A program made the position numbers and the translations under genes. From assembly GCA_947624065.1 (NCBI GenBank), contig CANQIO010000001.1:71659-117590 (forward strand): a stretch of DNA of 45,932 bases. The letters run 5' to 3'. The stretch is from an uncultured Oscillospiraceae bacterium (lineage in GTDB: Bacteria > Bacillota > Clostridia > Oscillospirales > Oscillospiraceae). Below are positions 7,221 to 24,706 of the stretch, one piece after another (position 1 is the first letter of the stretch; every line of letters begins with the position of its first letter). The notes under the pieces were generated by a model. The model had not been told where the DNA came from, searched no databases, and saw only the letters and a list, made by a program, of their open reading frames with translations.

Positions 7221-7255
7221 AAAAGAAAAACCGGGCCGGCGCAATGCCGGCCCGG
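7221..7255 (-). terminator. intrinsic terminator of the purine operon
   Basis: A perfect 10-bp GC-rich stem (7231-7240 with 7246-7255, loop of 5) is followed on the minus strand by TTTTTCTTTT. It lies 12 bases beyond the purL stop codon. Confidence 0.92.
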
Positions 7256-7267
7256 ATGCGGGATCGA

Positions 7268-10200
7268 TCAGTTATTCTTGAAATACGCCACCGCGGCGCG
7301 GAACAGGCCCATGTCATACTCGCCGGGCACATTTTTGTACAGATGCTCCCCTACCCGCTCGGTGTGGCCCATCTTGCCCAGCACCCGCCCGTCGGGGCTG
7401 GTGATGCCCTCGATGGCATAGACGGAGCCGTTGGGGTTGAAGTCCGTGTCCATGGAGGGCACGCCGGAAAGGTCCACATACTGGGTGGCGATCTGGCCAT
7501 TCTCCGCCAGAGTCCGGACCATCTTCTCCGATGCCAGGAACCGGCCCTCGCCGTGGGAGATGGGCACGCAGTACACCTCGCCGGGCCGGGTATTGGCCAG
7601 CCAGGGGGACTTGTTGGAGGCCACCCGGGTCCGCACGATCTTGGACTGGTGCCGGCCGATGGTGTTGTAGCTCAGGGTTGGGCAGTTCTCGTCGGTATCC
7701 ACGATCTTGCCGAAGGGCACCAGGCCCAGCTTGATCAGCGCCTGGAAGCCGTTGCAGATGCCCAGCATCAGCCCGTCCCGCTGCTCCAAGAGCTTCGTGA
7801 CCTGCTCCCGCACAGGGCCGCCCCGGAAGAAGGCGGCGATGAACTTGGCGCTACCCTCTGGCTCGTCGCCGCCGGAGAAGCCGCCGGGCAGCACGATCAT
7901 CTGGGCGCGCTCTATGGCCTCCGCCGCCCTCTGGATGCTCCGGGCGGTATCGGCGGCGGTCAGGTTGCGCACCACCAAGATCTCCGCCTCGCCGCCGGCC
8001 TCGGTCACGGCCCGGGCGGTGTCATACTCGCAGTTGGTGCCGGGGAACACGGAGATTAGCGCCTTGGGCCGGGCACAGAGCACCGCGGGAGCTTTGCGCT
8101 CGCCGGCGGTATAGGAAAACACCTCCACGGCACCGGTCTCGCCGGTGCGGGTGGGATATACGTCCGCCAGCACGGCCTCGTTGAGGACCAGCAGCTCGTC
8201 GATGGGGGCGCTGTCGCCGCCCAGGTCGATGACCGGCTCCGCGGTGGTGACGCCCACGCGGCGGGCATAGGCACAGTCGGTATCCGACTCCAGCTCCGCC
8301 ACGATGGCCCCGTAAAACGGGATGTGCCACAGTTCCCCCGTCATCTCCTCGTTAGCCTTAAATCCAACGCGGTTGCCGAAGGACATCTTCATCACCGCCT
8401 CGGCGGCGCTCTCCTCGATGGCCCAGGCGGCCTTCACCTTACCCTGTTGGGCCAGAGCGTGAAACGCATCCCAGGCTGCCTTGGTGTGCTCCGGCTCGTT
8501 GCCGCCGAACACATACACCGGGTGCCCCGCCTCTTTGAACTCCGGCGAGAGCACATCCCCGGCCAGGATGGGGGCGATGGCGAAGGAGATCAACGTAGGC
8601 GGCACGTCCTTGTCCATGAAGGAGCCGGACATGGAGTCCTTGCCGCCGATGGCGGCGCAGCCGTAGTCCAGCTGGGCCTCCAGGGCCCCCAGCAGCGCGG
8701 AGAAGGGCTTGCCCCAGCGCGCCGGGTCGTCCCGCAGCTTTTCGAAAAATTCCTGGAAGGTGAGATAGGCGTCCTTATAGTCCGCGCCGGCGGCCACGAT
8801 CTTGGTCAGGGACGTGACCACGCTGTCCATGGCCCCGGCGTAGGGGTCCACGGTGAGCCGGTCGGCATCGCAGCCCCAGGCCATGACGCTGGCCTGGTCG
8901 GTGTGCTGCCCCGGCAGCACCGGCAGCAGCGCCGCCATGGCCTGGGCCGGGGAGGTCTGGGTCCGGCCGCCGAAGGGCATGAGCACGCTGCCCGCGCCGA
9001 TGGTGCTGTCGAACCGCTCCGTGAGGCCCCGCCGGGAGGCGCACTTAAGGCTCGCGGCCATATCCCGCAGCGAGCCAAAGCGGGCCTGGCCCATGGCGGT
9101 CCGGTCCTTCTCCGGCACGGACACCGCCGCGTGCTTCACCGCGCCGTTGGTGTTCAAAAACGCCCGGCTCAGATCCGCGATGGTCCGGCCCTTCCAGGTC
9201 ATCACCATCCGGGGGCTCTCGGTGACCACCGCCACCCGGTACGCCTCCAGGTTCTCCGCCTGAGCGGCGGCAATGAACGCCGCCTCGTCCTCCGGTGCCA
9301 CCACCACGGCCATGCGCTCCTGGCTCTCGGAGATGGCCAGCTCCGTGCCGTCCAGGCCGTCATACTTTTTGCGCACCGCGTCCAGGTCGATGGCAAGGCC
9401 GTCCGCCAGCTCGCCGATGGCCACGCTGACGCCGCCGGCGCCAAAGTCGTTGCAGCGTTTGATGAGCCGGGTCACGTTCCCGTCCCGGAAAAGGCGCTGG
9501 ATCTTCCGCTCCTCGGGGGCGTTGCCCTTCTGGACCTCGGAGGCCATGGTCTGCAGGGACTTGGTGTTGTGGCTCTTGGAGGAGCCGGTGGCACCGCCGA
9601 TGCCGTCCCGGCCGGTCCGGCCGCCCAGCAGGATGACCACGTCGCCGGGCGCGGGCTCCTCCCGGCGCACGTTCTCCGCCGGGGCAGCCGCCACCACCAC
9701 GCCGCACTCCAGGCGCTTGGCGATATACCCCTCGTGATACATCTCGGCCACATGGCCGGTGGCCAGGCCGATCTGGTTGCCGTAGGAGGAATAGCCCGCC
9801 GCGGCGGTCTGGGCCAGCTTCCGCTGGGGCAGCTTGCCGGGGATGGTCTTGTCCAGACCCACCCGTGGGTCTCCGCCGCCGGTGACGCGCATGGCCTGGT
9901 GTACGTAGGCCCGGCCGGACAGGGGGTCCCGGATGCAGCCGCCGATGCAGGTGGCCGCGCCGCCGAAGGGCTCGATCTCCGTGGGGTGGTTGTGGGTCTC
10001 GTTTTTGAACATGAGCAGCCAGTCCTGTGTGTCGCCGTCCACATCGGCGGGCACATGGATGGAGCAAGCGTTGATCTCCTCGCTCTCGTCCAGCTCGGGC
10101 AGCTCGCCACGCTTTTTCAGCACCTTGGTGCCCAGAGTGGCGATGTCCATGAGGGTCTGTGGCCGCGCCGCGGCCTTCTCGGGCCCATAGACCTCTTCCC

Positions 10201-10966
10201 TGGCCGCCAGATACCGCCCATAGGCCGCCCGGACCGCCGGGTCGGCGATGTCCGCGCGGTCGATGTGGGTGGAAAAGGTGGTGTGGCGGCAGTGGTCGGA
10301 CCAGTAGGTATCCACCACCCGCACCTCGGTGAGGGTGGGGTCCCGGTGCTCTTCGTTTTTGAAATAGTTCTGGAGGAACTTCAAGTCGTCCAGGTCCATG
10401 GCCAGGCCCAGAGAGTCCAGCAGCGCGCCCAGGGCCGCCTCATCCATGGCGGTGAAGCCCTCCACCGTCTGCACATGGTCGGGCACGGCATAGGTCCGCT
10501 CCAGGGTCTCCGGCTTTTCCAGAGACGCCTCCCGGCTCTCCACGGGGTTGATGACATAGCCTCTGATCTTCGCCATGTCCTCCGGGGACAGGTCCCCCCG
10601 CAGCAGGTACACCTTGGCATAGGACACCAGCGGCCGCTCCACGCCGGCCATCAGCTGGATGCACTGGGCGGCGGAGTCAGCCCGCTGGTCGAACTGGCCC
10701 GGCAGGGCCTCCACCGCGAGGCAAGTCCACGCTCCCTCCGGCATGGGGAAGGTCTCGTCGTAGACCAGGTCCACCTGGGGCTCGGAAAAGACCACGGACC
10801 GGGCCTCGTCAAAGACCGCCCGGTCGATGCGGTCCGCGTCATACCGGTTCAGGATGCGCACTTCCTCCAGGGACTTCACGCCCAGGAAGTCCCGCAGGTC
10901 GCCGAGCAGACCGGCGCTCTCCGGGGACACCCCCGGCTTTTTCTCCACGTATATCCGATAGACCAT
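7268..10966 (-). CDS. purL: phosphoribosylformylglycinamidine synthase, single-chain large form
   Basis: This enzyme converts FGAR, glutamine and ATP to FGAM, the fourth step of purine synthesis. At 1232 residues it is the large single-chain type in which the PurS-like, synthetase and glutaminase parts are fused. This explains why no purS or purQ is present. The N-terminal 150 residues are PurS-like. AIR-synthetase-like ATP domains occupy the middle (for example GGRTGRDGIGGATGSS and FGAGGVSVAIGELADG). The class I glutaminase domain begins near residue 968 (VFPGTNCEYD), with the nucleophile Cys1071 in GICNGFQ and His1201/Glu1203 in GHTER. It is the last gene of the purine operon, 8 bases after purD. 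The GGAGG upstream is rather far from the ATG, so translation probably depends partly on coupling to purD. Confidence 0.97.
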   Translation of the reverse strand: MVYRIYVEKKPGVSPESAGLLGDLRDFLGVKSLEEVRILNRYDADRIDRAVFDEARSVVFSEPQVDLVYDETFPMPEGAWTCLAVEALPGQFDQRADSAAQCIQLMAGVERPLVSYAKVYLLRGDLSPEDMAKIRGYVINPVESREASLEKPETLERTYAVPDHVQTVEGFTAMDEAALGALLDSLGLAMDLDDLKFLQNYFKNEEHRDPTLTEVRVVDTYWSDHCRHTTFSTHIDRADIADPAVRAAYGRYLAAREEVYGPEKAAARPQTLMDIATLGTKVLKKRGELPELDESEEINACSIHVPADVDGDTQDWLLMFKNETHNHPTEIEPFGGAATCIGGCIRDPLSGRAYVHQAMRVTGGGDPRVGLDKTIPGKLPQRKLAQTAAAGYSSYGNQIGLATGHVAEMYHEGYIAKRLECGVVVAAAPAENVRREEPAPGDVVILLGGRTGRDGIGGATGSSKSHNTKSLQTMASEVQKGNAPEERKIQRLFRDGNVTRLIKRCNDFGAGGVSVAIGELADGLAIDLDAVRKKYDGLDGTELAISESQERMAVVVAPEDEAAFIAAAQAENLEAYRVAVVTESPRMVMTWKGRTIADLSRAFLNTNGAVKHAAVSVPEKDRTAMGQARFGSLRDMAASLKCASRRGLTERFDSTIGAGSVLMPFGGRTQTSPAQAMAALLPVLPGQHTDQASVMAWGCDADRLTVDPYAGAMDSVVTSLTKIVAAGADYKDAYLTFQEFFEKLRDDPARWGKPFSALLGALEAQLDYGCAAIGGKDSMSGSFMDKDVPPTLISFAIAPILAGDVLSPEFKEAGHPVYVFGGNEPEHTKAAWDAFHALAQQGKVKAAWAIEESAAEAVMKMSFGNRVGFKANEEMTGELWHIPFYGAIVAELESDTDCAYARRVGVTTAEPVIDLGGDSAPIDELLVLNEAVLADVYPTRTGETGAVEVFSYTAGERKAPAVLCARPKALISVFPGTNCEYDTARAVTEAGGEAEILVVRNLTAADTARSIQRAAEAIERAQMIVLPGGFSGGDEPEGSAKFIAAFFRGGPVREQVTKLLEQRDGLMLGICNGFQALIKLGLVPFGKIVDTDENCPTLSYNTIGRHQSKIVRTRVASNKSPWLANTRPGEVYCVPISHGEGRFLASEKMVRTLAENGQIATQYVDLSGVPSMDTDFNPNGSVYAIEGITSPDGRVLGKMGHTERVGEHLYKNVPGEYDMGLFRAAVAYFKNN

Positions 10967-10974
10967 ATCCGCTC

Positions 10975-12243
10975 TCAGCCCTCCAGCGCCTTCAACGCCC
11001 GCGCACCGATGTCATGGCGGCAGTAGGCGTTGGCAAAATGCACCTTCTCCGCGTCGGCGTAGGCGGCCTGGATGGCCGCGGGCAGGCTGTCCGCCACGGC
11101 GGTGACACCCAGCACCCGGCCGCCGCTGGTCAGCAGCTTTCCATTTTCCAGCTTCGCCCCGGCCACATACACCTGGGCGGTGACGCCCTCGTCACAGGTG
11201 ATCTCATAGCCCTTTTCGTAGTGCTCGGGATAGCCGTCGCTCGCCAGGATGACGCAGCAGGCGTGCTTTTCGGAAAAGCGCACCTCCGTCCCGGCCAGGG
11301 TCCCGTTCTGGCAGGCCATCATGACCGTGAGCAGGTCGGACTCCATCAGCGGCAGCACCACCTGGGTCTCCGGGTCGCCGAAGCGGCAGTTGTACTCGAT
11401 GACACGGGGCCCGTCGGGAGTGAGCATCAGGCCGAAGTAGAGGCAGCCCCGGAAGGGCCGGCCCTCGGCCGCCATGGCGGCGATGGTGGGCTTGAAGATG
11501 GTCTCCATGCACACGTCGGCAATATCCTTGGTGTAATAGGGGTTGGGGGCCACGGTGCCCATGCCGCCGGTGTTGAGGCCCTCATCGTTATCGCGGGCCC
11601 GCTTGTGGTCCATGGAGGACACCATGGGCTTGACGGTCTTCCCGTCGGTGAAGGCCAGCACGGACACCTCCGGGCCGGTCAAAAATTCCTCCACCACGAT
11701 CTGGTCGCCGCTGGCGCCGAATTTTTTGTCCTCCATGATGGACTTCACGGCCTCCACGGCCTCTTCCCTGGTCTGGGCGATGAGCACGCCCTTGCCCAGA
11801 GCCAGGCCGTCGGCCTTCACCACCGTGGGCAGCGGCGCGGTCTGGACGTATGCCAGCGCCGCGGCGGGGTCGTCAAAGACCTCGTAGGACGCGGTGGGGA
11901 TGCCGTATTTCTTCATGAGGTTTTTGGAAAAGACCTTGCTGCCCTCGATGATGGCGGCGTTTTTCGCCGGACCGAAGCAGGGCACCCCCGCCGCCTCCAG
12001 CGCGTCCACCATCCCCAGCACCAGGGGGTCGTCCGGGGTGACCACCGCAAAGTCGACGCCTGTTTCCTTGGCAAAGCGCACCGCGCCCTGGATGTCCTTG
12101 GCACCCACATCCACGCACACCGCGTCCGCGGCGATGCCGCCGTTGCCGGGCAGGGCGTAGATCGTCTCCACATCGGGGTTTTCCTTCAGCTTACGGATGA
12201 CGGCGTGTTCCCGGCCGCCGCTGCCGATGACCATGAGCTTCAT
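10975..12243 (-). CDS. purD: phosphoribosylamine-glycine ligase (GAR synthetase)
   Basis: The 422-residue ATP-grasp enzyme joins glycine to phosphoribosylamine to give GAR, the second step of the pathway. It begins MKLMVIGSGGREHA, the family signature. ATP-grasp features include GPAKNAAIIEGSK, VVKADGLALGKGV and the metal-binding segment RFGDPETQVVLPL. Length is normal. GGAGG lies 8 bases before the ATG. It sits between the AICAR transformylase gene (19-base gap) and purL (8-base gap) in the operon. Confidence 0.97.
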   Translation of the reverse strand: MKLMVIGSGGREHAVIRKLKENPDVETIYALPGNGGIAADAVCVDVGAKDIQGAVRFAKETGVDFAVVTPDDPLVLGMVDALEAAGVPCFGPAKNAAIIEGSKVFSKNLMKKYGIPTASYEVFDDPAAALAYVQTAPLPTVVKADGLALGKGVLIAQTREEAVEAVKSIMEDKKFGASGDQIVVEEFLTGPEVSVLAFTDGKTVKPMVSSMDHKRARDNDEGLNTGGMGTVAPNPYYTKDIADVCMETIFKPTIAAMAAEGRPFRGCLYFGLMLTPDGPRVIEYNCRFGDPETQVVLPLMESDLLTVMMACQNGTLAGTEVRFSEKHACCVILASDGYPEHYEKGYEITCDEGVTAQVYVAGAKLENGKLLTSGGRVLGVTAVADSLPAAIQAAYADAEKVHFANAYCRHDIGARALKALEG

Positions 12244-12262: not shown

Positions 12263-13441
12263 TCAATGGTGGAACAGCCGCATGCCCGTGAAGGCCATGA
12301 CGATGCCGTATTTGTCCGCCGTCTCGATCACGTTGTCGTCCCGGATGCTGCCGCCGGGCTCGGCGATATAGGCCACGCCGGACTTACGGGCCCGCTCCAC
12401 GTTGTCCCCGAAGGGGAAGAACGCGTCGCTCCCTACGGTCACGCCGCTCTGCGTGGCGATCCATGCCTTTTTCTCCGCCGCCGTCAGCGGCTCGGGCTTC
12501 TCCGTGAACACGTTCTGCCAGGCCCCGTCGGAGAGCACGTCCTCATATTCGTCGGAGATGTACACGTCGATGGCGTTGTCCCGGTCGGGCCGGCGGATGC
12601 CGGGCTTGAAGGGCAGGCGCAGGACCTTTTCATGCTGCCGGAGATACCAGTTGTCCGCCTTGTTGCCGGCAAGGCGCGTGCAGTGGATGCGGCTCTGCTG
12701 GCCCGCGCCCACGCCGATGGCCTGGCCGTCCTTGACATAGCAGACGGAGTTGGACTGGGTGTACTTGAGGGTGATGAGGGCCACGGTCATGTCGATGACC
12801 GCCTCAGGGGGCAGGGTCTTGTTCCTGGTCACGATGTTGGCGAAGGCCTCCGCCGTGACCTTATAGTCGTTGCGGCCCTGCTGGAAAGTGATGCCGTACA
12901 CGTCCTTGCGCTCCACCGGGGCGGGGACGTAGTCCGGGTCGATCTCGACCACGTTATAATTGCCCTTTTTCTTGGTCCTGAGGATGGCCAGGGCCTCGGG
13001 CGTATAGCCTGGGGCGATGACGCCGTCGGAGACCTCCTCTTTCAGATACCGGGCGGTGGCCTCGTCGCAGACCTCGCTGAGGGCCGCCCAGTCGCCGTAG
13101 GAGCACAGCCGGTCCGCGCCCCGGGCCCGGATATAGGCGCAGGCGATGGGAGAAAGCTCCGCCGCCGGGTCCACGAAATAGATCTTCTTATCCGTCTCAG
13201 ACAGGGGCTTGCCCACGGCGGCTCCCGCCGGGGACACATGCTTGAAGCTGGCGGCGGCGGGCAGGCCGGTGGCCTCGGAAAGCTCCTTCACCAGCTGCCA
13301 GGAGTTGAACGCGTCCATGAAGTTGATATAGCCCGGCTTGCCGTTGAGCACCTGGATGGGCAGGTCCCGGCCGTCGGACATAAAGATGCAGGAGGGCTTC
13401 TGGTTGGGGTTGCAGCCGTATTTCAGTTCCAGTTCTTTCAT
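12263..13441 (-). CDS. purH: stand-alone AICAR transformylase (PurH C-terminal activity)
   Basis: The 392-residue protein corresponds to the formyltransferase half of bifunctional PurH: AICAR plus 10-formyl-tetrahydrofolate gives FAICAR. It starts with LKYGCNPNQKPS and keeps the catalytic Lys-His pair in SFKHVSPAGAA. It lacks the N-terminal MGS-like IMP cyclohydrolase domain, and that step is supplied by the unrelated gene just upstream. The C-terminal half has GVGAGQQSRIHCTRLA and SDAFFPFGDNV, typical of the family. AAAGGGAG precedes the ATG. It is one of the two formyl-folate users in this operon, which fits control by a ZTP riboswitch. Confidence 0.95.
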   Translation of the reverse strand: MKELELKYGCNPNQKPSCIFMSDGRDLPIQVLNGKPGYINFMDAFNSWQLVKELSEATGLPAAASFKHVSPAGAAVGKPLSETDKKIYFVDPAAELSPIACAYIRARGADRLCSYGDWAALSEVCDEATARYLKEEVSDGVIAPGYTPEALAILRTKKKGNYNVVEIDPDYVPAPVERKDVYGITFQQGRNDYKVTAEAFANIVTRNKTLPPEAVIDMTVALITLKYTQSNSVCYVKDGQAIGVGAGQQSRIHCTRLAGNKADNWYLRQHEKVLRLPFKPGIRRPDRDNAIDVYISDEYEDVLSDGAWQNVFTEKPEPLTAAEKKAWIATQSGVTVGSDAFFPFGDNVERARKSGVAYIAEPGGSIRDDNVIETADKYGIVMAFTGMRLFHH

Positions 13442-13456: not shown

Positions 13457-14161
13457 TCAGGCGTTGTGTTTGTTGACGATCACCGTGTCCCGCGCCCCCG
13501 TCTCCAGGTCGATCATGGACACGTACAGGGACACCTTGTTGTCCTCGTTGAGGGCCGCCCATACCTGTTCCGCCAGGGATTTGGCATCGGCCGCGGCGAT
13601 GGCCACCGGGGCGGGCTCGCCCGCATAGGACGGCAGGGGCTCCCCATCGGCGGCGTAGGTGTGGATGATGTGGCCCAGGCCAGCCTGGGGCTTGTCGTAC
13701 TCATAGAAATACCGGCAGCAGCAGGCCGGGTCCCCGTCCAGGCTCTTGAGGATGGAGAGCTTATAGCTGCCGTCCGGGCTCACCAGCCCGGAGATGCGGG
13801 GGGTCCAATTGGGCCCGTCCGGCTCAAAGGCCCGGGTGCGCAGGGCGGCGGCAAAGGTCTGGCCGGACAGCAGGGCGTCCCGGATGGTATCGGTCTGGTC
13901 CCCGTTGGTGACCACAGTCTCCCGGCCGACGAGGCGCACAGGGTGGTAAATGATCAGGCTGGGGTCCACCATCTTGGCCGGGTCGTGGGCCTGGGTGCGG
14001 ATGCCATCCTCGGTCCCGACGAACACCCGGTTGCGGCTGTTGACGCTGCGGCCCATGATGAAATAGACGATGACGGCCTTTTTACCGTCGGCGCTGCGGC
14101 CCAGGACGATGCCCCGGCCGGGATAGGTCCGCTCGCTGAGATACGCTGCCAAGTCAGTCAT
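13457..14161 (-). CDS. IMP cyclohydrolase, PurO-type
   Basis: The 234-residue protein resembles the IMP cyclohydrolase family first known from archaea (PurO), which closes FAICAR to IMP, the last step of the pathway. Supporting segments are the N-terminal YPGRGIVLGRSADGKKAVIVYFIMGRSVNSRNR and the central ISGLVSPDGSYKLSILKS. It is not homologous to the MGS-like cyclohydrolase domain of normal bacterial PurH, so the last two reactions use two separate proteins here. Its start overlaps the purN stop by 8 bases (ATGACTGA), and AAGGAGG lies 7 bases before the ATG. The position between purN and the AICAR transformylase gene supports the assignment. Confidence 0.88.
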   Translation of the reverse strand: MTDLAAYLSERTYPGRGIVLGRSADGKKAVIVYFIMGRSVNSRNRVFVGTEDGIRTQAHDPAKMVDPSLIIYHPVRLVGRETVVTNGDQTDTIRDALLSGQTFAAALRTRAFEPDGPNWTPRISGLVSPDGSYKLSILKSLDGDPACCCRYFYEYDKPQAGLGHIIHTYAADGEPLPSYAGEPAPVAIAAADAKSLAEQVWAALNEDNKVSLYVSMIDLETGARDTVIVNKHNA

Positions 14162-14771
14162 GCTCTTTCCTCCTTGCGATGTCCGCGGCGACCATCTCCG
14201 CCGCCTGGGGCAGGATGATCCACTCCGCCTGTTCCATGACCCGCCGCTGCAAGCGCTCCGGCGTGTCCCCGTCCTCGATCATGACAGGTTTTTGCAGGAT
14301 GATGCGCCCCCCGTCGGGGATCTCGTTGACAAAATGCACCGTGGCGCCGGTGACCTTCACGCCCCGCTTGAGGGCCTCCTCATGGACCTTCAGGCCGTAA
14401 TACCCCTTGCCGCAGAAGGAGGGGATCAGCGCCGGATGGACGTTCAAAATGCGCTCCGGGAACCGGTCGGTGAAATCCTTGCTGAGGATGCTCATGAAGC
14501 CCGCCAGCACGATCATCTCCGCGCCGGCCCGGTCCAGTGCTTTCAGGATCGCCGCCTCGAAAGCCTCCTGACTGCCCAGCTCCTTCTGGGAGCAGACCAC
14601 CGCGGGCACGCCCGCCTTTTCCGCTCTCGTCAGGGCATAGGCCCCCGGCTGGCTGGATACCACCAGAACGATCTGGCCGGAATGGAGCTTCCCGGACGCC
14701 TGGGCGTCCAGCAGCGCCTGCAGGTTGGTGCCGCCGCCGGAGACGAACACGGCGATGCGCGTCTTTGTCAT
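14154..14771 (-). CDS. purN: GAR transformylase, folate-dependent
   Basis: The 205-residue enzyme formylates GAR to FGAR using 10-formyl-tetrahydrofolate, the third step. It begins with IAVFVSGGGTNLQAL and contains NVHPALIPSF with the catalytic His; the catalytic Asp is in PDGG. The residue three positions before that Asp is Asn (VNEIPDGG), where many homologues have Asp, a minor variation. Length is normal. Its ATG overlaps the purM stop as ATGA, so the two are coupled. Confidence 0.96.
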   Translation of the reverse strand: MTKTRIAVFVSGGGTNLQALLDAQASGKLHSGQIVLVVSSQPGAYALTRAEKAGVPAVVCSQKELGSQEAFEAAILKALDRAGAEMIVLAGFMSILSKDFTDRFPERILNVHPALIPSFCGKGYYGLKVHEEALKRGVKVTGATVHFVNEIPDGGRIILQKPVMIEDGDTPERLQRRVMEQAEWIILPQAAEMVAADIARRKEHD

Positions 14772-15814
14772 ACCAGCTGCACCCTCTCTCCGCCGGAGAC
14801 GACCGCGCCCAGCACATAGGCGTCCTCGCCCTGCTCCCGCAGCACCGCCAGGGCCCGGTCCGCGTCCGCCTCGGCCACGGTGACGGTCATGCCCACGCCC
14901 ATGTTGAAGGTGTTGAACATGTCCCGTTCGGGGATCTCCCCCGCCTTTTGGATGAGGCCAAAGACGGCAGGGGTCCGTACCGCCGCTTTTTCGATGCGGA
15001 CGGAGAGATGCGCCGGGATGCTCCGGGGAATGTTCTCATAAAACCCGCCGCCGGTGATGTGGCTGACACCCTTGACAGTCACCGCCTGCATCAGGGCCAG
15101 CACGGGCTTCACATAGATCCTGGTGGGGGTCAGCAGCGCCTCGCCCAGGGTCATGCCCAGCGCGTCATGGTACTGGTCCAGCGCCTGGGGATGCTCGTCC
15201 AGGCCGAACACCTTCCGCACCAGGGAGAAGCCGTTGGAGTGCACCCCTGTGGAGGGCAGCGCCAGCAGCACGTCCCCCGCCTGTGTGGCAGAAGTATCCA
15301 ATATCTTGCTCTTGTCCACGATGCCCACGGTGAAGCCGGCCAGGTCATAGTCGTCCTCAGGCATGACGCCGGGGTGCTCGGCGGTCTCGCCGCCCACCAG
15401 GGCGCAGCCGGCCTGGACGCAGCCCTCGGCCACCCCCGCCACGATGGCGGCGATGCGCTCGGGGATATTCCTCCCGCAGGCGATGTAATCCAGGAAGAAG
15501 AGCGGCTTTGCGCCCGCGCAGACCACGTCGTTGACGCACATGGCCACGCAGTCGATGCCGATGGTGTCATGCTTGTCCAGATACTGGGCGACGCGCAGCT
15601 TGGTGCCCACGCCGTCGGTGCCGGAGATGAGCACCGGGTGCTCCATGCCGGCCAGGTCCGGCTCGAAAAGCCCGCCGAACCCGCCGATGCCCCCCAGCAC
15701 GCCGGGGATGGCGGTACGGCCGATATGGCGCTTCATCAGTTCCACCGCTTTGTAGCCGGCGGTGATGTCCACGCCGGCGGCGGCATAGCTGGCAGAATAG
15801 CTCTCCTCAGGCAT
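14768..15814 (-). CDS. purM: AIR synthetase (phosphoribosylformylglycinamidine cyclo-ligase)
   Basis: PurM converts FGAM to AIR with ATP, the fifth step. With the chosen start (MPEESYSASYAAAGVD) it is 348 residues. This ATG has GGGAGG 7 bases upstream and overlaps the purF stop as ATGCCTGA; an in-frame upstream ATG at 15847 would lie inside purF without a ribosome binding site. Family segments are the Gly-rich GGIGGFGGLFEPDL, LISGTDGVGTKL, CALVGGETAEHPG and the conserved ITGGGFYENIPR near the C-terminus. Confidence 0.96.
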   Translation of the reverse strand: MPEESYSASYAAAGVDITAGYKAVELMKRHIGRTAIPGVLGGIGGFGGLFEPDLAGMEHPVLISGTDGVGTKLRVAQYLDKHDTIGIDCVAMCVNDVVCAGAKPLFFLDYIACGRNIPERIAAIVAGVAEGCVQAGCALVGGETAEHPGVMPEDDYDLAGFTVGIVDKSKILDTSATQAGDVLLALPSTGVHSNGFSLVRKVFGLDEHPQALDQYHDALGMTLGEALLTPTRIYVKPVLALMQAVTVKGVSHITGGGFYENIPRSIPAHLSVRIEKAAVRTPAVFGLIQKAGEIPERDMFNTFNMGVGMTVTVAEADADRALAVLREQGEDAYVLGAVVSGGERVQLV

Positions 15815-17249
15815 TGTCGGGCCTCCCCTCGCTGATCTTGTACTCAAAGCGGCTCTTGGCGCTGTTTTTGGGAACGGCCGTAGGGTAGTTGTTGGTGAAG
15901 CAGGCGTCGCAGAAGCCCTCGCAGCTCTCCCCGCCCAGCAGCCAGGGCAGATCCTCCACCGGCAGATAGCCCAAGCTGTCAGCCCCGATGATGGCGCAGA
16001 TCTCCTCCACCGTGTGGTGGCAGGCGATCAGATTCTCCCGGGAGTCGATGTCGGTGCCGTAGTAGCAGGGGTTCAAAAACGGCGGCGCGCTGATGCGCAT
16101 ATGCACTGCGGCGGCGCCGGCCTCCCGCAGCAGGTTCACGAACCGGGCGCTGGTGGTGCCCCGGACGATGGAGTCGTCCACCACCACCACACGCTTGCCC
16201 CGGATGACGCTGGCCACCGGGTTGAGCTTGATGCGCACCAAGTCCTCCCGGGTGCTCTGGCCCGGCGCGATGAAGGTGCGGCCGATATACTTGTTCTTGA
16301 TGAAGCCCACGCCGTAGGGGATGCCGGAGGCGCGGGCATAGCCCAGCGCCGCGTCCAGCCCCGAGTCGGGCACGCCGATGACCACGTCCGCCTCCACGCT
16401 GTGGCGCCGCGCCAGCCGCTCGCCGGCCCGGACCCGCGCCTCGTGGACGGACACGCCGTCGATGACGGAGTCGGGCCGGGCAAAGTAGATGTGCTCGAAC
16501 ACGCACAGCTTCTTCGGCGCTTTGCCGCAGTGGTCCCGGATGGACTCCACGCCGTCCTTGGAGAACACCACGATCTCCCCCGGCTCCACATCCCGGATGA
16601 ACCGGGCGTTCACCGCCTCCAGCGCGCAGGTCTCCGAGGCCACCACATAGGTCCCGTCCTCCCGCTGGCCGAAGCACAGCGGCCGGAAGCCGTTCTCATC
16701 CCGCACGGCCAGCAGCTTGGACGGGCTCATGACCACCATGGAGTAGGCGCCCTTGATGAGGAACATGGCCTGGTTGACCGCCTGCTCGATGGAGGGGGCG
16801 GTGAGCCGCTCCTTGGTGATGACGTAGGAGATGACTTCCGTATCGCTGGTGGTGTGGAAGATGGAGCCCTGCAGCTCCAGGGCTTTGCGCAGCTCCGCGG
16901 AATTGACCAGGTTCCCGTTGTGGGCCAGGGCCATGCGGCCCTTGATATGGTTGACCACCATGGGCTGGCAGTTCTCCCGGCCATTGCCGCCGGTGGTGCC
17001 GTAGCGGACGTGGCCCACGGCCATGTTCCCCTCCGGAAGGTGGTTCAGCACCGGGCTCGTGAACACGTCGCTGACCAGACCGGTGTCCTTATAGAAGCTG
17101 AACAGGCCGTCGTCGTTGATCACGATGCCGCAGCTCTCCTGTCCGCGGTGCTGCAGGGCATACAGGCCGTAATAGGCCATGGGCGCCAAGGGCGTCTGCC
17201 CGGGGGCAAAGATGCCCAGCACGCCGCATTCCTCGTGCAGAGTACTCAT
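15807..17249 (-). CDS. purF: amidophosphoribosyltransferase
   Basis: The 480-residue enzyme makes phosphoribosylamine from PRPP and glutamine, the committed step. The sequence begins MSTLHEECGVLGIF. By family knowledge the first seven residues are a propeptide that is removed to expose the nucleophile Cys8. The C-terminal phosphoribosyltransferase domain has the PRPP motif VVVVDDSIVRGTT. Four cysteines fit the [4Fe-4S] cluster of the Bacillus-type enzyme: one in KLCVFEHIYFARPDS, one in FLNPCYYG, and two in SCEGFCDACF. It lies 9 bases after purC, with AAAGGAG just before the ATG. Feedback inhibition by purine nucleotides is expected from the family. Confidence 0.97.
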   Translation of the reverse strand: MSTLHEECGVLGIFAPGQTPLAPMAYYGLYALQHRGQESCGIVINDDGLFSFYKDTGLVSDVFTSPVLNHLPEGNMAVGHVRYGTTGGNGRENCQPMVVNHIKGRMALAHNGNLVNSAELRKALELQGSIFHTTSDTEVISYVITKERLTAPSIEQAVNQAMFLIKGAYSMVVMSPSKLLAVRDENGFRPLCFGQREDGTYVVASETCALEAVNARFIRDVEPGEIVVFSKDGVESIRDHCGKAPKKLCVFEHIYFARPDSVIDGVSVHEARVRAGERLARRHSVEADVVIGVPDSGLDAALGYARASGIPYGVGFIKNKYIGRTFIAPGQSTREDLVRIKLNPVASVIRGKRVVVVDDSIVRGTTSARFVNLLREAGAAAVHMRISAPPFLNPCYYGTDIDSRENLIACHHTVEEICAIIGADSLGYLPVEDLPWLLGGESCEGFCDACFTNNYPTAVPKNSAKSRFEYKISEGRPDNA

Positions 17250-17258
17250 AACGCTCCT

Positions 17259-17966
17259 TTAGCCCAAAATGCGCTTCATCATCTCGGCGTAGGCGTCCTC
17301 CACCCCGCCCAGGTCCCTGCGGAAGCGGTCCTTGTCCAGCTTCTCATGGGTGGTGCTGTCCCAGAACCGGCAGGTGTCGGGGCTGATCTCGTCGGCCAGG
17401 ACCAGCTTGCCGTCGGAGGTCTTGCCGAACTCCAGCTTGAAGTCCACCAAGTCCACGTTCACCGCCTTGAAAAAGGCCTTGAGCACGTCATTGACCTTGA
17501 AGGCCATGGCCTTGATGGCGGCCAGCTCCTCCTTGGTGCACAGCTTGAGGGCCAGGGCGTGGTAGTCGTTGATCAGCGGGTCGCCCAGCGCGTCGTTCTT
17601 ATAGGAAGTCTCGAAGGTGGGCTCGTCGAACACGATCCCCTCCTCCACGCCGTAGCGCTTGGCAAAGCTGCCGGCGGAGATGTTGCGGATGATGACCTCC
17701 AGGGGCACGATGGAGACCTTTTTCACCACGGTCTCCCGGTCGCTCAGCTCTTCTACAAAGTGGGTGGGCACGCCCTCCTTTTCCAGGATGCCCATCAGGT
17801 AGTTGGTGACCCGGTTGTTGATGGCGCCCTTGCCGGCGATCTGGCCCTTTTTCAGGCCGTTGAAGGCGGTGGCGTCGTCCTTGTAGGAGACGATCACCAG
17901 ATCGGGGTCGTCGGTGGCGTAGACCTTTTTGGCCTTGCCCTCATAGATCTGCTCTTTCTTCTGCAC
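17259..17966 (-). CDS. purC: SAICAR synthetase
   Basis: PurC joins CAIR and aspartate with ATP to give SAICAR. The 235-residue sequence begins [17 protein letters not shown], the family N-terminus. It has [20 protein letters not shown] and LVDFKLEFG, with the conserved [14 protein letters not shown] near the C-terminus. The start codon is GTG, supported by GGGAGGT 8 bases upstream; no ATG fits. It follows purE after 32 bases. Confidence 0.97.
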
Positions 17967-17998: not shown

Positions 17999-18493
17999 TC
18001 AGTGGTTGAATCGCGCTTCCACCGCGGCGTTTTTGGCCAGGACCTTTTCCGTCTCAGCGGCACGGGCGGCGGCGAGCTTGTCCGCCAGCGCCTCGTCCGA
18101 GAGGGCCAGCATCTGCACGCAAAGCAGGGCGGCGTTGACAGCTCCGTCTATCCCAACGGTGGCGACCGGGATGCCGGAGGGCATCTGCACCGTGGACAGC
18201 AGCGCGTCAACGCCGTCTAAACTTTTGGACTTTAAAGGGATGCCAACGACAGGCAGGATGGTATTGGCGGCGATGGCGCCAGCCAGGTGGGCCGCCATGC
18301 CGGCGGCGGCGATGATCGCGCCGAACCCGTTCGCCCGGGCGCTTCGGGCAAAATCCCGCGCCTGGTCCGGCGTGCGGTGCGCGGAAAACACATGCACCTC
18401 TATGGGCACATCGAATTCCGCCAGCTTGGCGGCAGCCTTCTCCACGACGGGCAGATCGCTGTCGCTGCCCATGATAATGGCGACTTTCTTCAT
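17999..18493 (-). CDS. purE: N5-CAIR mutase (class I PurE)
   Basis: The 164-residue first gene of the purine operon begins [12 protein letters not shown]. It contains FSAHRTPD and [11 protein letters not shown], the motifs of the class I enzyme that isomerises N5-CAIR to CAIR. Class I PurE normally works with PurK, but no purK is present in this operon, so PurK is elsewhere or non-enzymatic carboxylation supplies CAIR. AGGGAG lies 7 bases before the ATG. It is directly downstream of the ZTP riboswitch. Confidence 0.97.
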
Positions 18494-18507
18494 TGATGCA
18501 CTCCCTT

Positions 18508-18552
18508 AAACAAAATACGGACAGCCCTATCCACTCGCAAATAGAACTGCCC
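18508..18552 (-). terminator. terminator hairpin of the ZTP riboswitch expression platform
   Basis: On the minus strand GGGCAGTTCTAT (18552-18541) can pair with ATAGGGCTGTCC (18530-18519) around a 10-base loop, followed by GTATTTTGTTT. The first arm reuses the conserved GGGCA at the 3' end of the aptamer, so aptamer and terminator are mutually exclusive. This is the usual arrangement for a switch that is on when ligand is bound. Confidence 0.8.
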
Positions 18553-18618
18553 AGACGGTCGGCATAAACAATGAAATTGGCTCCCCCGCGTGCCTCGCGT
18601 ACCGTCAGTTGCCAACTC
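18548..18618 (-). promoter_or_regulatory. ZTP (pfl-motif) riboswitch aptamer
   Basis: The purE leader contains the conserved pieces of the ZTP/ZMP riboswitch in order. P1 pairs GAGTTGGC (18618-18611) with GCCAATTTC (18581-18573). ACTGACGG (18609-18602) forms the internal loop. P2 is CGCG-AGGCA-CGCG, then comes GGGGAG (18586-18581), and a 3' segment CCGTCTGGGCA (18558-18548). CCGTC can pair with GACGG (18606-18602), the expected pseudoknot. The family is known to sense ZTP/AICAR, which accumulate when 10-formyl-tetrahydrofolate is scarce, and to control purine and folate genes. The position, about 55 bases before purE and 20 bases after the start point, agrees fully. Confidence 0.92.
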
Positions 18619-18641
18619 ATGCGTGTTTCATTGTCAAACTT

Positions 18642-18671
18642 ATTATATCAAACCGCAAAACGGAAAGTCAA
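18642..18671 (-). promoter_or_regulatory. sigma-A promoter of the purine operon
   Basis: TTGACT (18671-18666) and a perfect TATAAT (18647-18642) are separated by 18 bases on the minus strand. Transcription would start near 18635, giving a leader of about 140 bases that contains the riboswitch. The -35 box and spacer overlap the last codons of the truncated deacetylase gene. Confidence 0.85.
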
Positions 18672-19325
18672 TTCTCGCCCTCCGCCGGGGAAAGACATTT
18701 TTCTGCCATATAACTGGTAATTTTTAGCCATTCTGCCCAGTGTGTCCCGACCGGCCTGCCGCCGGGGCCTTTCCTCTGTCCGGGACGGCTCCACGTCCCA
18801 CTGGATGGGATAGATGCCCATGTCCCGGATGGTGGTGATGACCTCGTCGTCGTATTCCCCATAGGGGCAGCGGAACAGCTTCACGTCCTGGCCCGTGATG
18901 GCCTCGATCTTGCCCGCGCACAGGCTCACCTCGTCGATGATCTGCTTCTTGGACAGCTTCGCCATGTGCGGGTGCGTGTCCGAGTGGTCGCCGATCTCCA
19001 TACCCGCGTCGGCCAGGGCCTGGACGCTCTCCGGGTATTTGTCTGCCCACTGCCCCACCAGGAAGAAGGTGGCCTTCACGCCGTAGGAGTTCAGGATGTC
19101 GATGAGCTTCTGGGTGTCCTCGTTGCCCCAGGCGGCGTCGAAGGTCAGGCTGACGGCCTTGTTGTCCCGCTCCACGCAGTAGATGGGCAGCTCCCTTGCG
19201 GAGGCGGACACGCCCACGATGGCGGGGCTGTTCACCACCCAAAATATAGCCGCCACCGCAAGCACCAGGGCGGCGGGGCCCAGGGACCTGCGGTGTTTCA
19301 TAAGTATGCGTTTGATGTTGTTCAA
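18648..19325 (-). CDS. polysaccharide deacetylase, C-terminally truncated
   Basis: The 225-residue protein has an N-terminal membrane anchor (about residues 16-38) and a NodB-type deacetylase domain of the PdaB/chitin-deacetylase kind. Motif 1 is LTFDAAWGNEDT, motif 2 GDHSDTHPHM (metal His residues), motif 3 FRCPYGEYDD and motif 4 PIQWDVEP. After motif 4 the sequence turns into an Arg-rich tail with no family resemblance, and motif 5 (Leu-x-His) plus about 50 residues are missing. It is therefore probably inactive or altered. The stop lies within the purine operon promoter. The start is probably TTG, with GGGGGG upstream; an ATG eight codons further in has no ribosome binding site. Confidence 0.8.
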   Translation of the reverse strand: MNNIKRILMKHRRSLGPAALVLAVAAIFWVVNSPAIVGVSASARELPIYCVERDNKAVSLTFDAAWGNEDTQKLIDILNSYGVKATFFLVGQWADKYPESVQALADAGMEIGDHSDTHPHMAKLSKKQIIDEVSLCAGKIEAITGQDVKLFRCPYGEYDDEVITTIRDMGIYPIQWDVEPSRTEERPRRQAGRDTLGRMAKNYQLYGRKMSFPGGGRELTFRFAV

Positions 19326-19412
19326 AAACGTTCCCCCCGACTTCGGTTTTGGTACATCCTATGTGGCCGCCTGTCGGTTTATGTACCCGGCGCACGCACC
19401 GCGCCGCCGACG

Positions 19413-19449
19413 GAAAAAGAGAGGCGGCGGAAAGACTTTCCGCCGTCTC
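19413..19449 (-). terminator. intrinsic terminator of the opp operon
   Basis: A 13-bp stem (19421-19433 with 19437-19449, one G-T pair, 3-base loop) is followed on the minus strand by TCTTTTTC. It lies about 10 bases after the stop of the last gene of the operon. Confidence 0.88.
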
Positions 19450-19459
19450 ATTTCATGTT

Positions 19460-19861
19460 TCATGCGCGGTAGTACAGTGCCAGCAGCACGCCCGCCAGCG
19501 CCAGATAGCCCAGCCCCGTGAAGAGCACGCACCGCACATCCGGCCGGTCTTTCTCCCTCCGGCGCGCCTTGTACTCTTCGTAGGTCAGCCGGCTCTCGAA
19601 CCGGTCCTTCCGGGGGGAGAATTTGCGCAGCAGCGTATGCATGGCAAAGCCCATGGGGTCGAAGGCCCCCTCCGCGCTCACCAGCGCCAGCGCGCCGAAG
19701 CAAGTCAGGAAGATCCCCGCCACGAAAGCGCCGTCGCAGAGCATCCGCAGGGGCGTGGGAGCCTCATAGCTGTTCCACTGGAACGCCGCCACGGCCGCCC
19801 CGATCAGAAGCCCCGCCCCGGCGCTGACGAACCATGGGCGATTGCGCCTGAAAAAGCTCAT
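19460..19861 (-). CDS. small membrane protein, DUF3899-like
   Basis: The 133-residue protein has three hydrophobic segments (about residues 10-27, 42-62 and 111-131). Between the second and third is a basic cytoplasmic loop with RKDRFESRLTYEEYKARRREKDRP. The layout resembles the DUF3899 membrane proteins of Firmicutes; no function is known to me. Its ATG overlaps the oppF stop as ATGA and the operon terminator follows directly, so it is the last gene of the transporter operon. The coupling suggests a role in the transporter or its membrane environment, but this is inference. Confidence 0.7.
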   Translation of the reverse strand: MSFFRRNRPWFVSAGAGLLIGAAVAAFQWNSYEAPTPLRMLCDGAFVAGIFLTCFGALALVSAEGAFDPMGFAMHTLLRKFSPRKDRFESRLTYEEYKARRREKDRPDVRCVLFTGLGYLALAGVLLALYYRA

Positions 19862-21078
19862 AGGCCGTACTCCGCCTTGTACCGGGCCGCCTCCGCGCTG
19901 TTGGCGCTGACAAAGTGTCCGGGGACGATCTCCATGAACTGCGGCCCCTCCTGGGAATAGTCATGGGCGATGGCCGGCTGGTAAACGATGCGCTTGCGGC
20001 GCTGCTCATAGTCCGGGTCCGGCAGCGGGATGGCCGACAGCAGGCTCCGGGTGTAGGGGTGCATGGGATGGGCGAACAGCTCGTCGGACCCGGCCAGCTC
20101 CACGATCTTGCCAAAATACATCACCGCGATCCGGTCGGAGAAATACTTGACCACCGACAGGTCGTGGGCGATGAACAGAATGGTCAGCCCCATCTCGTGG
20201 CGCAGATCGTTGAGCAGGTTGATGACCTGGGCCTGGATGGACACGTCCAGGGCCGACACCGGCTCGTCGGCGATGATGAGCTCGGGCTTCATGACGACGG
20301 CCCGGGCGATGCCGATGCGCTGGCGCTGGCCGCCGGAGAACTCATGGGGATACCGGTCCGCGTGTTCCTTCACCAGCCCCACCCGCTCCAGCATCTGGCA
20401 GACCTGGTCGTTGATGTACTTCTCGTCCCGGACGCCCTGGATGCGCAGGCCCTCGGCGATGATCTCCCGCACGGTCATGCGGGGGTTCAGGGACGAGACC
20501 GGGTCCTGGAAGATCATCTGCATCTTGGTGACGATGTTCTCCCTGGACGCCTCCTTCAAACGCGCGTCCCGCTCCTTTTCCAGGGCATGGCGCGCCTCAC
20601 CGGACGCCGCGGCCAGCCTGGGCTCATATTCCTCCCGGATCTCCCGCACCCGGCGTTCCCGGTAGAGCTTGACGCAGTCCTTCTGGTCCCGGCGGGCCTC
20701 CTTCGCGGCCTGCTTCTGCTCCTGGATAAAGGCGGCCAGGCGCTGCTCCTCGGCCTGGACGGCCTGGGCGTCGCCGGACTTTTTCAGTTCCTCCGTCCGC
20801 TGGGCGGAGGCCTTCTTCTCCGCGGCGATGGCGTCGGTGAAGGTCCGGGGACCGGCGCTGATGCGCTGGCCCTTGAAGATCACCTCGCCGCCGGTGATGT
20901 TATACAGCTTGATGATGGCCCGGCCGGTGGTGGTCTTGCCGCAGCCGGACTCGCCCACCAGGCCGAACACCTCGCCCGGATAGATGTCAAAGCTGATGTC
21001 GTCCACCGCCTTGAAGTCCTTCCGGCCGAAATACTGCTTCAGGTGGCGTACCTGCAGGACGGGCTCACGGTTATCCAT
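19858..21078 (-). CDS. oppF: oligopeptide ABC transporter ATPase OppF-type, with inserted coiled coil
   Basis: The 406-residue ATPase powers peptide import with OppD. Walker A is GESGCGKT (42-49), Q-loop MIFQDP (188-193), signature FSGGQRQR (247-254), Walker B LIIADEP (267-273) and H-loop His305. It ends with the dipeptide/oligopeptide-specific region AHPMHPYTRSLLSAIPLPDPD. Residues about 72-183 are an extra, highly charged helical segment (Glu/Lys/Arg/Ala-rich) between Walker A and the Q-loop, where typical OppF proteins have only about ten residues. This makes it about 80 residues longer than usual. It overlaps the oppD stop by 8 bases (ATGGATAA). Confidence 0.94.
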   Translation of the reverse strand: MDNREPVLQVRHLKQYFGRKDFKAVDDISFDIYPGEVFGLVGESGCGKTTTGRAIIKLYNITGGEVIFKGQRISAGPRTFTDAIAAEKKASAQRTEELKKSGDAQAVQAEEQRLAAFIQEQKQAAKEARRDQKDCVKLYRERRVREIREEYEPRLAAASGEARHALEKERDARLKEASRENIVTKMQMIFQDPVSSLNPRMTVREIIAEGLRIQGVRDEKYINDQVCQMLERVGLVKEHADRYPHEFSGGQRQRIGIARAVVMKPELIIADEPVSALDVSIQAQVINLLNDLRHEMGLTILFIAHDLSVVKYFSDRIAVMYFGKIVELAGSDELFAHPMHPYTRSLLSAIPLPDPDYEQRRKRIVYQPAIAHDYSQEGPQFMEIVPGHFVSANSAEAARYKAEYGL

Positions 21079-23215: not shown

Positions 23216-23218
23216 GGC

Positions 23219-24706
23219 TCACTCCTCCACGCCCCGCAGCGACGGGTTGAACGCGTCGCGCAGACCGTTGCCGAAAATGTTGAAGCAGATGAGAAGGATC
23301 GAGATGAACACCGCCGGGAAGAAAACGCAGTGGGGATAGGTGGACAGGGCCGCCTGGCCGTTGTTGAGCATGGTGCCCACGCTGGTCACGGTGCTGGACT
23401 GGAGGTTCACGATGCCCAGATAGGTCATGTTGGCCTCGGTGAAGATGACGCCGGGGATGCTCAGCACGGAGGTGGTGACGATGAAGCCCGCGGCGTTGGG
23501 CAGGATGTGGCGGAAGATGATCCGCCGGTCCTTGGCGCCCAGGGTCCGGGCCGCCAGCACGTATTCCTGGCCCTTGAAGCGGTAGAACTGGGCGCGGACC
23601 GTGGACGACTCCCCGATCCAGTCGAAGAAGATGAACGCGAAGAACAGCGTCACGATCACGCCCACCTTTTTCGCCAGATAGATCTGGAACAGGCTCATGA
23701 ACACCACCGTGGGCACCTCCCACAGGATGTCCTTGATCCGCTCGAAGATCAGATCGAACCAGCCGCCGTAATAGCCCTCCAGCGCGCCCACCACGATGCC
23801 GATGCCCAGGGAGATGGAGGACACCAGCACGCTCAGCACCAGGCTCAGCCGGGCGCCCAGCGCCAGCCGGGCAAAGATGTCGTAGCCATAGGAGTCCGCG
23901 CCGAACAGGAACGACGCCTCGTGGCCGTGCTGATACTTATACCACTCGGAATACAGCACCCGGCACTGGACCTGGGCGCCGTTCATCTTAGAGATGGTAT
24001 ACAGCGCTTCGCCGTTCTCGTCCCGCAAGAAGATGTCCTGGAGCTGGCCGTTCTCGTCCCGCTGGGCCACGCCCTTGGCGTTGGTCAGATACCAGCCGTT
24101 GGCGTTGCCCTTGTTGACCTGGTATTTCACCTGGCTGTCGTCGATGACGGGATAGAACAGCTGCACGCCCTGCTCCTGCTCATAGGCGCGGGCCGCCTCA
24201 TACTCCTTGCTGGTGAGCAGCACCGTGGCGTAGCCCACCTTGGCGTAGGAGTCGATGGTGAGGTCATAAAGCGTGTTCTTCCGCCCGGCGTCCACCACCT
24301 GCTCATAGGGCTCGGACGCCTCCACGATTGCCCCGGGGATGGCACTGTAATAGTCATAGGTCTGCTGGTTGGCGGTGACGCTGGAGCAGCCGTCCCAGAA
24401 CCCCAGGCCCAGCCTGACGCACAGCCCGTTCCTGGGAAGGGCATAGCTGTAGTAGTTGTCATATTGGGTCCCGCCATAGGGGGACACGATGGGGCCCACC
24501 GCGGCATAGATGGCCAGGATCAGGATCACAAAGGCGCACACCACGCTGCCCCGGTTGCGGGCAAAGCGGCTCATGGCGTCCCGGAAATAGCCCACGGGCT
24601 TGGTGTCCAGCTTCTTGTCGTGGACGCTCCCCTCCCGCCGGACCACGGCAAAGCACGACTCGTCCATGTCCATATAGGGGGCAAACTGTTCCGGTTTATA
24701 GCTCAT
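23219..24706 (-). CDS. oppC: oligopeptide ABC transporter permease OppC-type, with large outer domain
   Basis: The 495-residue permease has the OppC N-terminal segment, a first membrane helix at about 55-75, and then about 185 extra residues (78-262) rich in Tyr, Asp, Asn and Gln. Family topology would place these outside the membrane. The usual core follows: FGADSYGYDIFARLALGARLSL (268-289), several membrane helices and the EAA loop EYVLAARTLGAKDRRIIFRH (381-400), which contacts the ATPases. Typical OppC is about 300 residues. The start at 24706 has GGAGGAGG 8 bases upstream and overlaps the oppB stop by 11 bases; an in-frame upstream start at 24796 would lie deep in oppB. Confidence 0.93.
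   Translation of the reverse strand: MSYKPEQFAPYMDMDESCFAVVRREGSVHDKKLDTKPVGYFRDAMSRFARNRGSVVCAFVILILAIYAAVGPIVSPYGGTQYDNYYSYALPRNGLCVRLGLGFWDGCSSVTANQQTYDYYSAIPGAIVEASEPYEQVVDAGRKNTLYDLTIDSYAKVGYATVLLTSKEYEAARAYEQEQGVQLFYPVIDDSQVKYQVNKGNANGWYLTNAKGVAQRDENGQLQDIFLRDENGEALYTISKMNGAQVQCRVLYSEWYKYQHGHEASFLFGADSYGYDIFARLALGARLSLVLSVLVSSISLGIGIVVGALEGYYGGWFDLIFERIKDILWEVPTVVFMSLFQIYLAKKVGVIVTLFFAFIFFDWIGESSTVRAQFYRFKGQEYVLAARTLGAKDRRIIFRHILPNAAGFIVTTSVLSIPGVIFTEANMTYLGIVNLQSSTVTSVGTMLNNGQAALSTYPHCVFFPAVFISILLICFNIFGNGLRDAFNPSLRGVEE

Follow-up and report, generated by a model that had tools for sequence, protein, structure and literature searches.

A probable ZMP/ZTP riboswitch heading a nine-gene purine operon of an uncultured Oscillospiraceae bacterium

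The purine operon and its leader

The window, i.e., the whole stretch of 45,932 nucleotides analysed here, sits on contig 1 of a source genome of 1.92 Mb (81 contigs, about 75% complete). Its host is very likely a gut bacterium of the Oscillospiraceae, since the four nearest named relatives of its cyclohydrolase protein belong to Oscillospiraceae metagenome-assembled genomes (83-89% identity). The isolate names of these relatives start with "Lapin", which suggests that the host animals are probably rabbits. The minus strand of the window carries a series of purine genes, which were named by NCBIfam and Pfam profile searches and are listed here in the order of transcription together with the terminator behind the last of them.

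17999..18493, minus strand: purE (TIGR01162, 193 bits)
17259..17966, minus strand: purC (TIGR00081)
15807..17249, minus strand: purF (TIGR01134)
14768..15847, minus strand: purM (TIGR00878); the TTG start was set mechanically and the true start is probably slightly further in
14154..14771, minus strand: purN, formyl-folate-dependent GAR transformylase (TIGR00639)
13457..14161, minus strand: IMP cyclohydrolase-like (PurO-like) gene (PF07826, 211.8 bits)
12263..13441, minus strand: stand-alone AICAR transformylase of the PurH C-terminal type (NF005492, 706 bits)
10975..12243, minus strand: purD (TIGR00877)
7268..10966, minus strand: purL, single-chain FGAM synthase (TIGR01857, 1656 bits)
7231..7255, minus strand: intrinsic terminator closing the operon, a 10-pair GC hairpin followed by TTTTTCTTTT (terminator scan)

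The gaps between these genes range from -41 to +32 bases, and the next gene lies 104 bases beyond purL. Because the gaps are short and a strong terminator (7255-7231) stands before the next gene, the nine genes from purE to purL are well supported as one unit, in agreement with the first-pass annotation, which had described a nine-gene purine operon. It had also placed both formyl-folate-dependent enzymes therein, and PurN and the AICAR transformylase are indeed encoded. A weak promoter-like match (9/12) lies inside the operon at 17997-17970. With regard to the cyclohydrolase (13457-14161), two NCBIfam PurO models give 55 and 47 bits, i.e., values below their cut-offs of 150 and 158; the gene looks like a bacterial PurO-like branch that stands alongside the stand-alone AICAR transformylase.

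The leader upstream of purE contains the following elements.

18642..18671, minus strand: sigma-70-type promoter TTGACT-18-TATAAT with TG before the -10 element (11/12 consensus bases)
18542..18622, minus strand: RF01750 aptamer with P1, P2 and P3 (covariance model, 45.9 bits; covariation in the genus)
18602..18606, minus strand: 5' strand GACGG of the pseudoknot, in J1/2 (sequence; invariant in 25 genus rows)
18548..18564, minus strand: P3 helix and loop, in which TGCC (18564-18561) pairs with GGCA (18551-18548)
18554..18558, minus strand: 3' strand CCGTC of the pseudoknot, in the P3 loop (sequence; invariant in the genus rows)
18519..18552, minus strand: competing hairpin (terminator stem) that reuses GGGCA of P3 (scan, fold and covariation)
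18508..18517, minus strand: U-rich terminator tail TATTTTGTTT (terminator scan, tail score)
18501..18507, minus strand: Shine-Dalgarno sequence AAGGGAG of purE (sequence)

A conserved ZTP aptamer with the pseudoknot GACGG/CCGTC had been proposed, along with a search of the minus strand by Infernal and the Rfam pfl/ZTP model. This search (Rfam 15) matches RF01750 (ZMP/ZTP, pfl) to 18622-18542 with 45.9 bits, i.e., above the gathering score of 39 (E 1.9e-4), and covers the model in full length (1-86). The pseudoknot lies where it had been placed and consists of five standard pairs. RF01750 is the sole Rfam match of the window at the gathering threshold, and the match in the window is also the only one of this model within the incomplete source genome. 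By its class, the aptamer would bind ZMP/ZTP. The discovery of the ZMP/ZTP riboswitch is reportedly due to Kim et al. (2015). P1 of the window is imperfect and could adopt a second register, in which the 5' leader CAATGAAA (18633-18626) pairs with TTTCATTG (18576-18569, minus strand), i.e., with the 3' side of P1; this pairing competes with P1 as the Rfam model draws it, in a shorter register.

The 5' arm of the competing hairpin, GGGCAGTTCTATTT (18552-18539), starts inside P3 and pairs with 18532-18519, which results in 14 pairs by direct count and 16 in the simple terminator scan. Its 3' strand (the invader) forms G-U pairs and shows no bulge over the 14 pairs. That is, the hairpin at 18552-18519 takes a strand of P3 and is followed by TATTTTGTTT, such that the mutually exclusive terminator reusing GGGCA is present as described in the first-pass annotation. 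In the minimum-energy fold of the full leader, the hairpin forms and P3 is lost. The U tail starts with GTA and reaches a tail score of 3.03, which is undercut by only one of the 33 scored hairpins of other genera (the formula is said to follow d'Aubenton Carafa); the U tract of the window is real yet comparatively weak.

A consensus promoter, likewise expected upstream, is found with 11 of 12 matching bases, where chance would on average give 0.5 promoter-like matches (1.4-kb scan). Its -35 and -10 regions are kept in 27 of 28 aligned leaders of the genus, the exception being G322b, for which the script gave no promoter match. About 23-70 bases upstream of the -35 element, CTGGGCAGAATAGCTAAAAATTACCA (18740-18715) and then GGCGGAAAAATGTC (18707-18694, minus strand) seem, by eye, to be conserved across much of the clade introduced below and might form a protein-binding site. 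This stretch overlaps the 3' part of a deacetylase ORF (19325-18648), which covers the -35 element as well. The genes upstream on the same strand (18648-25664, minus) encode a polysaccharide deacetylase, a DUF3899 protein and an oligopeptide ABC transporter.

Covariation of the aptamer and the competing hairpin

We compared the fold energies of the window with those of shuffled sequences. The hairpin stretch shows a z-score of -1.24 (22 of 200 shuffles are as stable), the 101-base aptamer piece one of +0.84, and two full leaders reach -0.66 and -0.10. Since these energies are near those of the shuffles, fold energy was rejected as support for the structure. The evidence beyond chance is the covariance-model score together with the covariation observed in relatives.

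For the latter, we used an alignment (A1) of 25 rows from the genus, 24 of them distinct, i.e., the window and 24 further loci; one locus with an insertion in the aptamer (L054 of G321) was excluded. Within the aptamer, 96.5% of the pair cells are paired, and two-sided changes are found at 6 pairs and in 11 cells. None of 500 shuffles is as high for the number of two-sided pairs, the number of two-sided cells or the covariation score. The P1 helix, counted with two P2-side pairs, is supported by covariation, with two-sided changes at 6 pairs and 94.4% of its cells paired. P2 (3 pairs) and P3 both form; P2 is invariant and P3 shows no two-sided change, while the aptamer core is largely and the pseudoknot wholly invariant over the 25 rows. 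P2, P3 and the pseudoknot are therefore consistent with the structure rather than supported by covariation.

The competing hairpin was assessed on the same 25 rows. Here, 94.6% of the cells are paired, and two-sided changes occur at 6 pairs (3/500 shuffles as high) and in 21 cells (0/500). Its covariation score is 0.359 compared to 0.281 for shuffles, which related rows may beat without any structure, and to a maximum of 0.216 for slid versions, which retain the relatedness and are clearly lower, although it was the row of the window from which the structure had been taken. Of the five measures, one, i.e., further standard pair types, is not above the shuffles for either the aptamer (155/500) or the hairpin (351/500).

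Distribution and leader variation in the genus

RF01750 is present in at least 127 of 300 genomes of the family and in 24 of 35 genomes of the genus. The 26 matches of the genus score between 35.3 and 53 bits, compared to up to 70.4 bits in the family among the best matches listed. A strong purE match was obtained for 27 genus genomes, including all 24 with an aptamer, and all eight of the 35 genomes without a strong purE match are without the aptamer. With the exception of one aptamer cut by a contig end, all located aptamers of the genus (25/26) precede purE.

To describe the gene neighborhoods, we used 20 of the 25 congener places and 40 places from 36 genomes of other genera, among the matches listed; both sets were hand-picked for long contigs and variety and are thus non-random. 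In all 21 genus regions, i.e., that of the window and those of 20 congeners, the aptamer is followed by purE as the first gene. The full set of nine genes is seen in 14 of the 20 fetched congener regions, and the remaining six stop at contig ends. One congener region (L142) has about 1.6 kb more than the window between the AICAR transformylase gene and purD, which encodes a MutS domain V protein, and similar gaps are seen in L137, L138, L140, L143, L145, L146 and L149.

For the 40 chosen aptamers of other genera, we found 15 ahead of purE, 6 ahead of a cyclohydrolase gene and 19 ahead of something else. Among the latter, 14 first genes were located mechanically and 10 of those were searched, which named five fhs, two pfl, one gene of a pfl-activating enzyme and one glyA, with one left without a match. 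In L173, L174, L179, L180, L193 and L161, the aptamer lies just before the genes of the cyclohydrolase and the AICAR transformylase; purN is directly upstream in five of these, i.e., the aptamer is inside a pur operon. The locus of the window had been considered a clean natural example. It is clean but not rare: since purE of a pur operon follows 15/40 of the aptamers sampled in other genera, the arrangement is common in the family.

We also compared the tails that follow the hairpins, using 28 leaders of the genus and 33 of the 40 other-genus places; seven were dropped because the stem found by the simple search had fewer than 8 pairs. Among the 33 retained cases, a hairpin that starts at GGGC of P3 and has a U run behind it recurs, with a median longest T run of 5 within the first 9 bases. 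The genus leaders were split into a clade of 20 and the other 8. The clade comprises 19 rows that group together in the PurE+PurC tree (support 99/97), and G318, which falls outside on a long branch, has a poor purC match and was included on account of its leader. The median longest T run is 2 for the clade and 3 for the other 8 genus leaders, and no run longer than 2 is found in 14/20 clade leaders, in 2/8 of the rest of the genus and in 1/33 hairpins of other genera (the Mann-Whitney p-values of this comparison ignore shared descent). A T run of 4 is present in the window, its nearest relative (G316) and G311. Nor does a stronger stem compensate for the tail, the hairpins of the clade being slightly weaker (median -18.05 kcal/mol, compared to -20.7 in other genera). 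As the U runs are mostly missing on top of this, it is not clear that the clade has conserved intrinsic termination. The weak tails may, however, stop the polymerase with the help of factors.

A second alignment (A2) covers 17 U-poor leaders, i.e., the 14 without a run longer than 2 plus G318, G322a and G324, whose longest run is 3. The U-poor leaders of G326 and G307 have hairpins of 14-15 pairs. Although three of the 17 have no recognisable aptamer, 95% of the hairpin cells are paired, with 11 two-sided cells (2/500 shuffles as high); the two-sided changes occur at just 3 pairs, which is not above the shuffles (169/500). The three leaders without recognisable aptamer (G323, G309, G327) belong to the 14 and cluster in the tree (support 89/97). 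Within the 10.2 kb searched, they give no RF01750 match up to an E-value of 5, and they retain the promoter, the leader start, the hairpin and purE. Their aptamers are remodelled or deleted at approximately the following places.

L216:1325-1500, plus strand: leader with promoter, hairpin and purE kept
L218:1345-1500, plus strand: leader with promoter, hairpin and purE kept
L221:1993-2150, minus strand: leader with promoter, hairpin and purE kept

It is conceivable, and we put it forward only tentatively, that the expression platform of the clade has become a hairpin lacking a nearby U tract, which keeps its pairing via compensating changes and shares GGGCA with the aptamer, and that in three species the aptamer was remodelled or deleted whereas promoter, hairpin and purE were retained. 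Such a hairpin would act other than by canonical intrinsic termination, i.e., by a factor-dependent stop or pause or by protection of the transcript, and the species of the window would have kept or regained the U tract. An aptamer-plus-platform covariation model of ZTP switches has been built from a seed of 187 sequences chosen by terminator prediction, according to the excerpts of PMC13273304 at hand; such a filter might miss the U-poor hairpins of this clade. On the loss or degeneration of ZTP switches, no paper was found in the open-licence text of PubMed Central, where absence proves little.

Alternatively, the switch of the clade could be decaying, with poor termination, a largely constitutive purE and an aptamer that either persists by inertia or is lost. 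The missing T runs, the three species that keep promoter, hairpin and purE without an RF01750 match and the genus scores below the best of the family would fit such a decay, but the pseudoknot shows no variation across the 25 genus rows and a large part of the aptamer core shows none either, the hairpin stays paired in the U-poor leaders with two-sided changes (though at 3 pairs only), and the window itself has its U tract. We thus regard decay as rather unlikely, noting that it is partly compatible with an ON switch in the window and bears mostly on the relatives.

Proposed control of the operon

We consider it highly probable that the element of the window belongs to the known ZMP/ZTP class and acts as a transcriptional ON riboswitch at the head of the nine-gene purine operon. 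Transcription would start near 18634, as judged from the -10 element, such that the aptamer is made first. With ZMP/ZTP bound, the pseudoknot and P3 would hold and the invader (18532-18519) would be kept from GGGCAGUUCUAUUU, which would allow read-through from purE to purL. Without the ligand, the invader would displace P3 and the pseudoknot, and the hairpin formed over TATTTTGTTT would stop transcription before purE. We infer the ON direction because, in the published mechanism, the ligand stabilises the pseudoknot and blocks the displacement of P3. The direction is uncertain to the extent that predicted OFF-type ZTP switches exist elsewhere, as reported in the excerpted text of PMC9481103.

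The riboswitch class, its mechanism and its purine targets are already published, as the excerpts of PMC2864571, PMC10085676 and PMC7337938 state, and the first-pass annotation had rightly called the class (RF01750) known. For the pfl motif, overlapping terminators and purine targets were noted by Weinberg and others; the consulted part of their paper names purH, fhs, pfl, glyA and folD as targets, while most others are other purine steps or conversions of THF one-carbon adducts (PMC2864571). Compared with this motif (RF01750) as the excerpts of PMC2864571 and PMC7266159 describe it, the window has the same aptamer, the same pseudoknot, the same overlap of the 3' region with the terminator and the same position ahead of purine genes; beside the imperfect P1 with its second register, no essential difference was found. 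In the pfl ZTP riboswitch of Clostridium beijerinckii, the terminator likewise forms once the invader has displaced P3 together with the pseudoknot, and the switch is ON with ligand; its invader shows three wobbles and two bulges in the portion of PMC10085676 available, whereas that of the window has G-U pairs without a bulge and its target is a pur operon. The ZMP riboswitch of Thermosinus carboxydivorans, compared by its description in the excerpts of PMC7337938, is also an ON switch that sets the pseudoknot against a rho-independent terminator.

One may also assume that the aptamer is real while the control is translational, i.e., that the ligand or the hairpin alters the access to the Shine-Dalgarno sequence of purE. 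The end of the hairpin is 24-27 bases away from the purE start codon in 20/20 clade leaders, 14 of which are without a close U run, which is in line with this assumption. The predicted openness of the Shine-Dalgarno sequence, on the other hand, is nearly the same in the window whether the hairpin is forced (0.31) or excluded (0.30), and over 28 leaders it rises in some and falls in others (the prediction omits the energy of the pseudoknot). The biggest change, from 0.86 to 0.12 in G257, is a drop in the ON fold, opposite to what an ON switch would need. Furthermore, the leader of the window contains no anti-Shine-Dalgarno strand visible by eye and retains TATTTTGTTT. Since the predicted access shows no consistent difference between the folds, a shift to translational control is unsupported, and we think it very improbable. 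That a functionless hairpin and a weak model match coincide by chance, as fold energies close to those of shuffles might suggest, has next to no probability given the score above the curated cut-off, the match in 24/35 genus genomes, the covariation and the fixed position before purE.

Returning to the transcriptional ON switch, two further claims about its role went too far. Control of the whole pathway had been proposed, and most purine genes are in fact within the unit. Yet purB, which makes ZMP, lies outside the operon. No purB was found in the source genome (about 75% complete), while 34 of 35 genomes of the genus have a match (31 above the cut-off). In all 22 genus genomes having both the aptamer and a near-full purB match (21 above the cut-off, G257 just below), purB is on a contig other than that of the aptamer. 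With regard to further regulators, RF00167 was not found in the incomplete source genome. A second purine regulator of the PurR type was not recognised there either, since the sole match to the Bacillus-type PurR is partial and far under the cut-off (21.7 vs. 258.7 bits; an ORF with a phosphoribosyltransferase domain near 29.7 kb of the window).

The switch had also been assumed to relieve the exact bottleneck that raises ZTP. The operon encodes the two consumers of formyl-folate rather than its makers, so that the switch would not increase the supply if a shortage of formyl-folate is the cause, and the steps from PurF to PurC, encoded there as well, feed ZMP synthesis. ZTP switches of other genera in the family do head fhs, pfl and glyA. 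The operon thus supplies the pathway of its own inducer, which is an odd control logic: switching it on would draw ZMP onward via the transformylase, yet also send more into ZMP. This may be a useful feed-forward or merely the mark of a high purine demand. A search of the open-licence text of PubMed Central, where absence proves little, found no paper on a ZTP riboswitch with "positive feedback".

Taken by itself, the finding in the window is correct and ordinary, as both the riboswitch class and this type of location are known, and it adds one more clean example of a single ZTP switch gating the greater part of de novo purine synthesis. Comparing the leaders of the genus is more useful than this single example. 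In some of them the switch has a U tract, in others an intact aptamer stands over a U-poor hairpin, and in others again the hairpin is kept while a recognisable aptamer has been lost. Because one genus shows all three leader states, its natural sequences can test how a transcriptional riboswitch is rebuilt or lost, and it is this modest question that the comparison raises.
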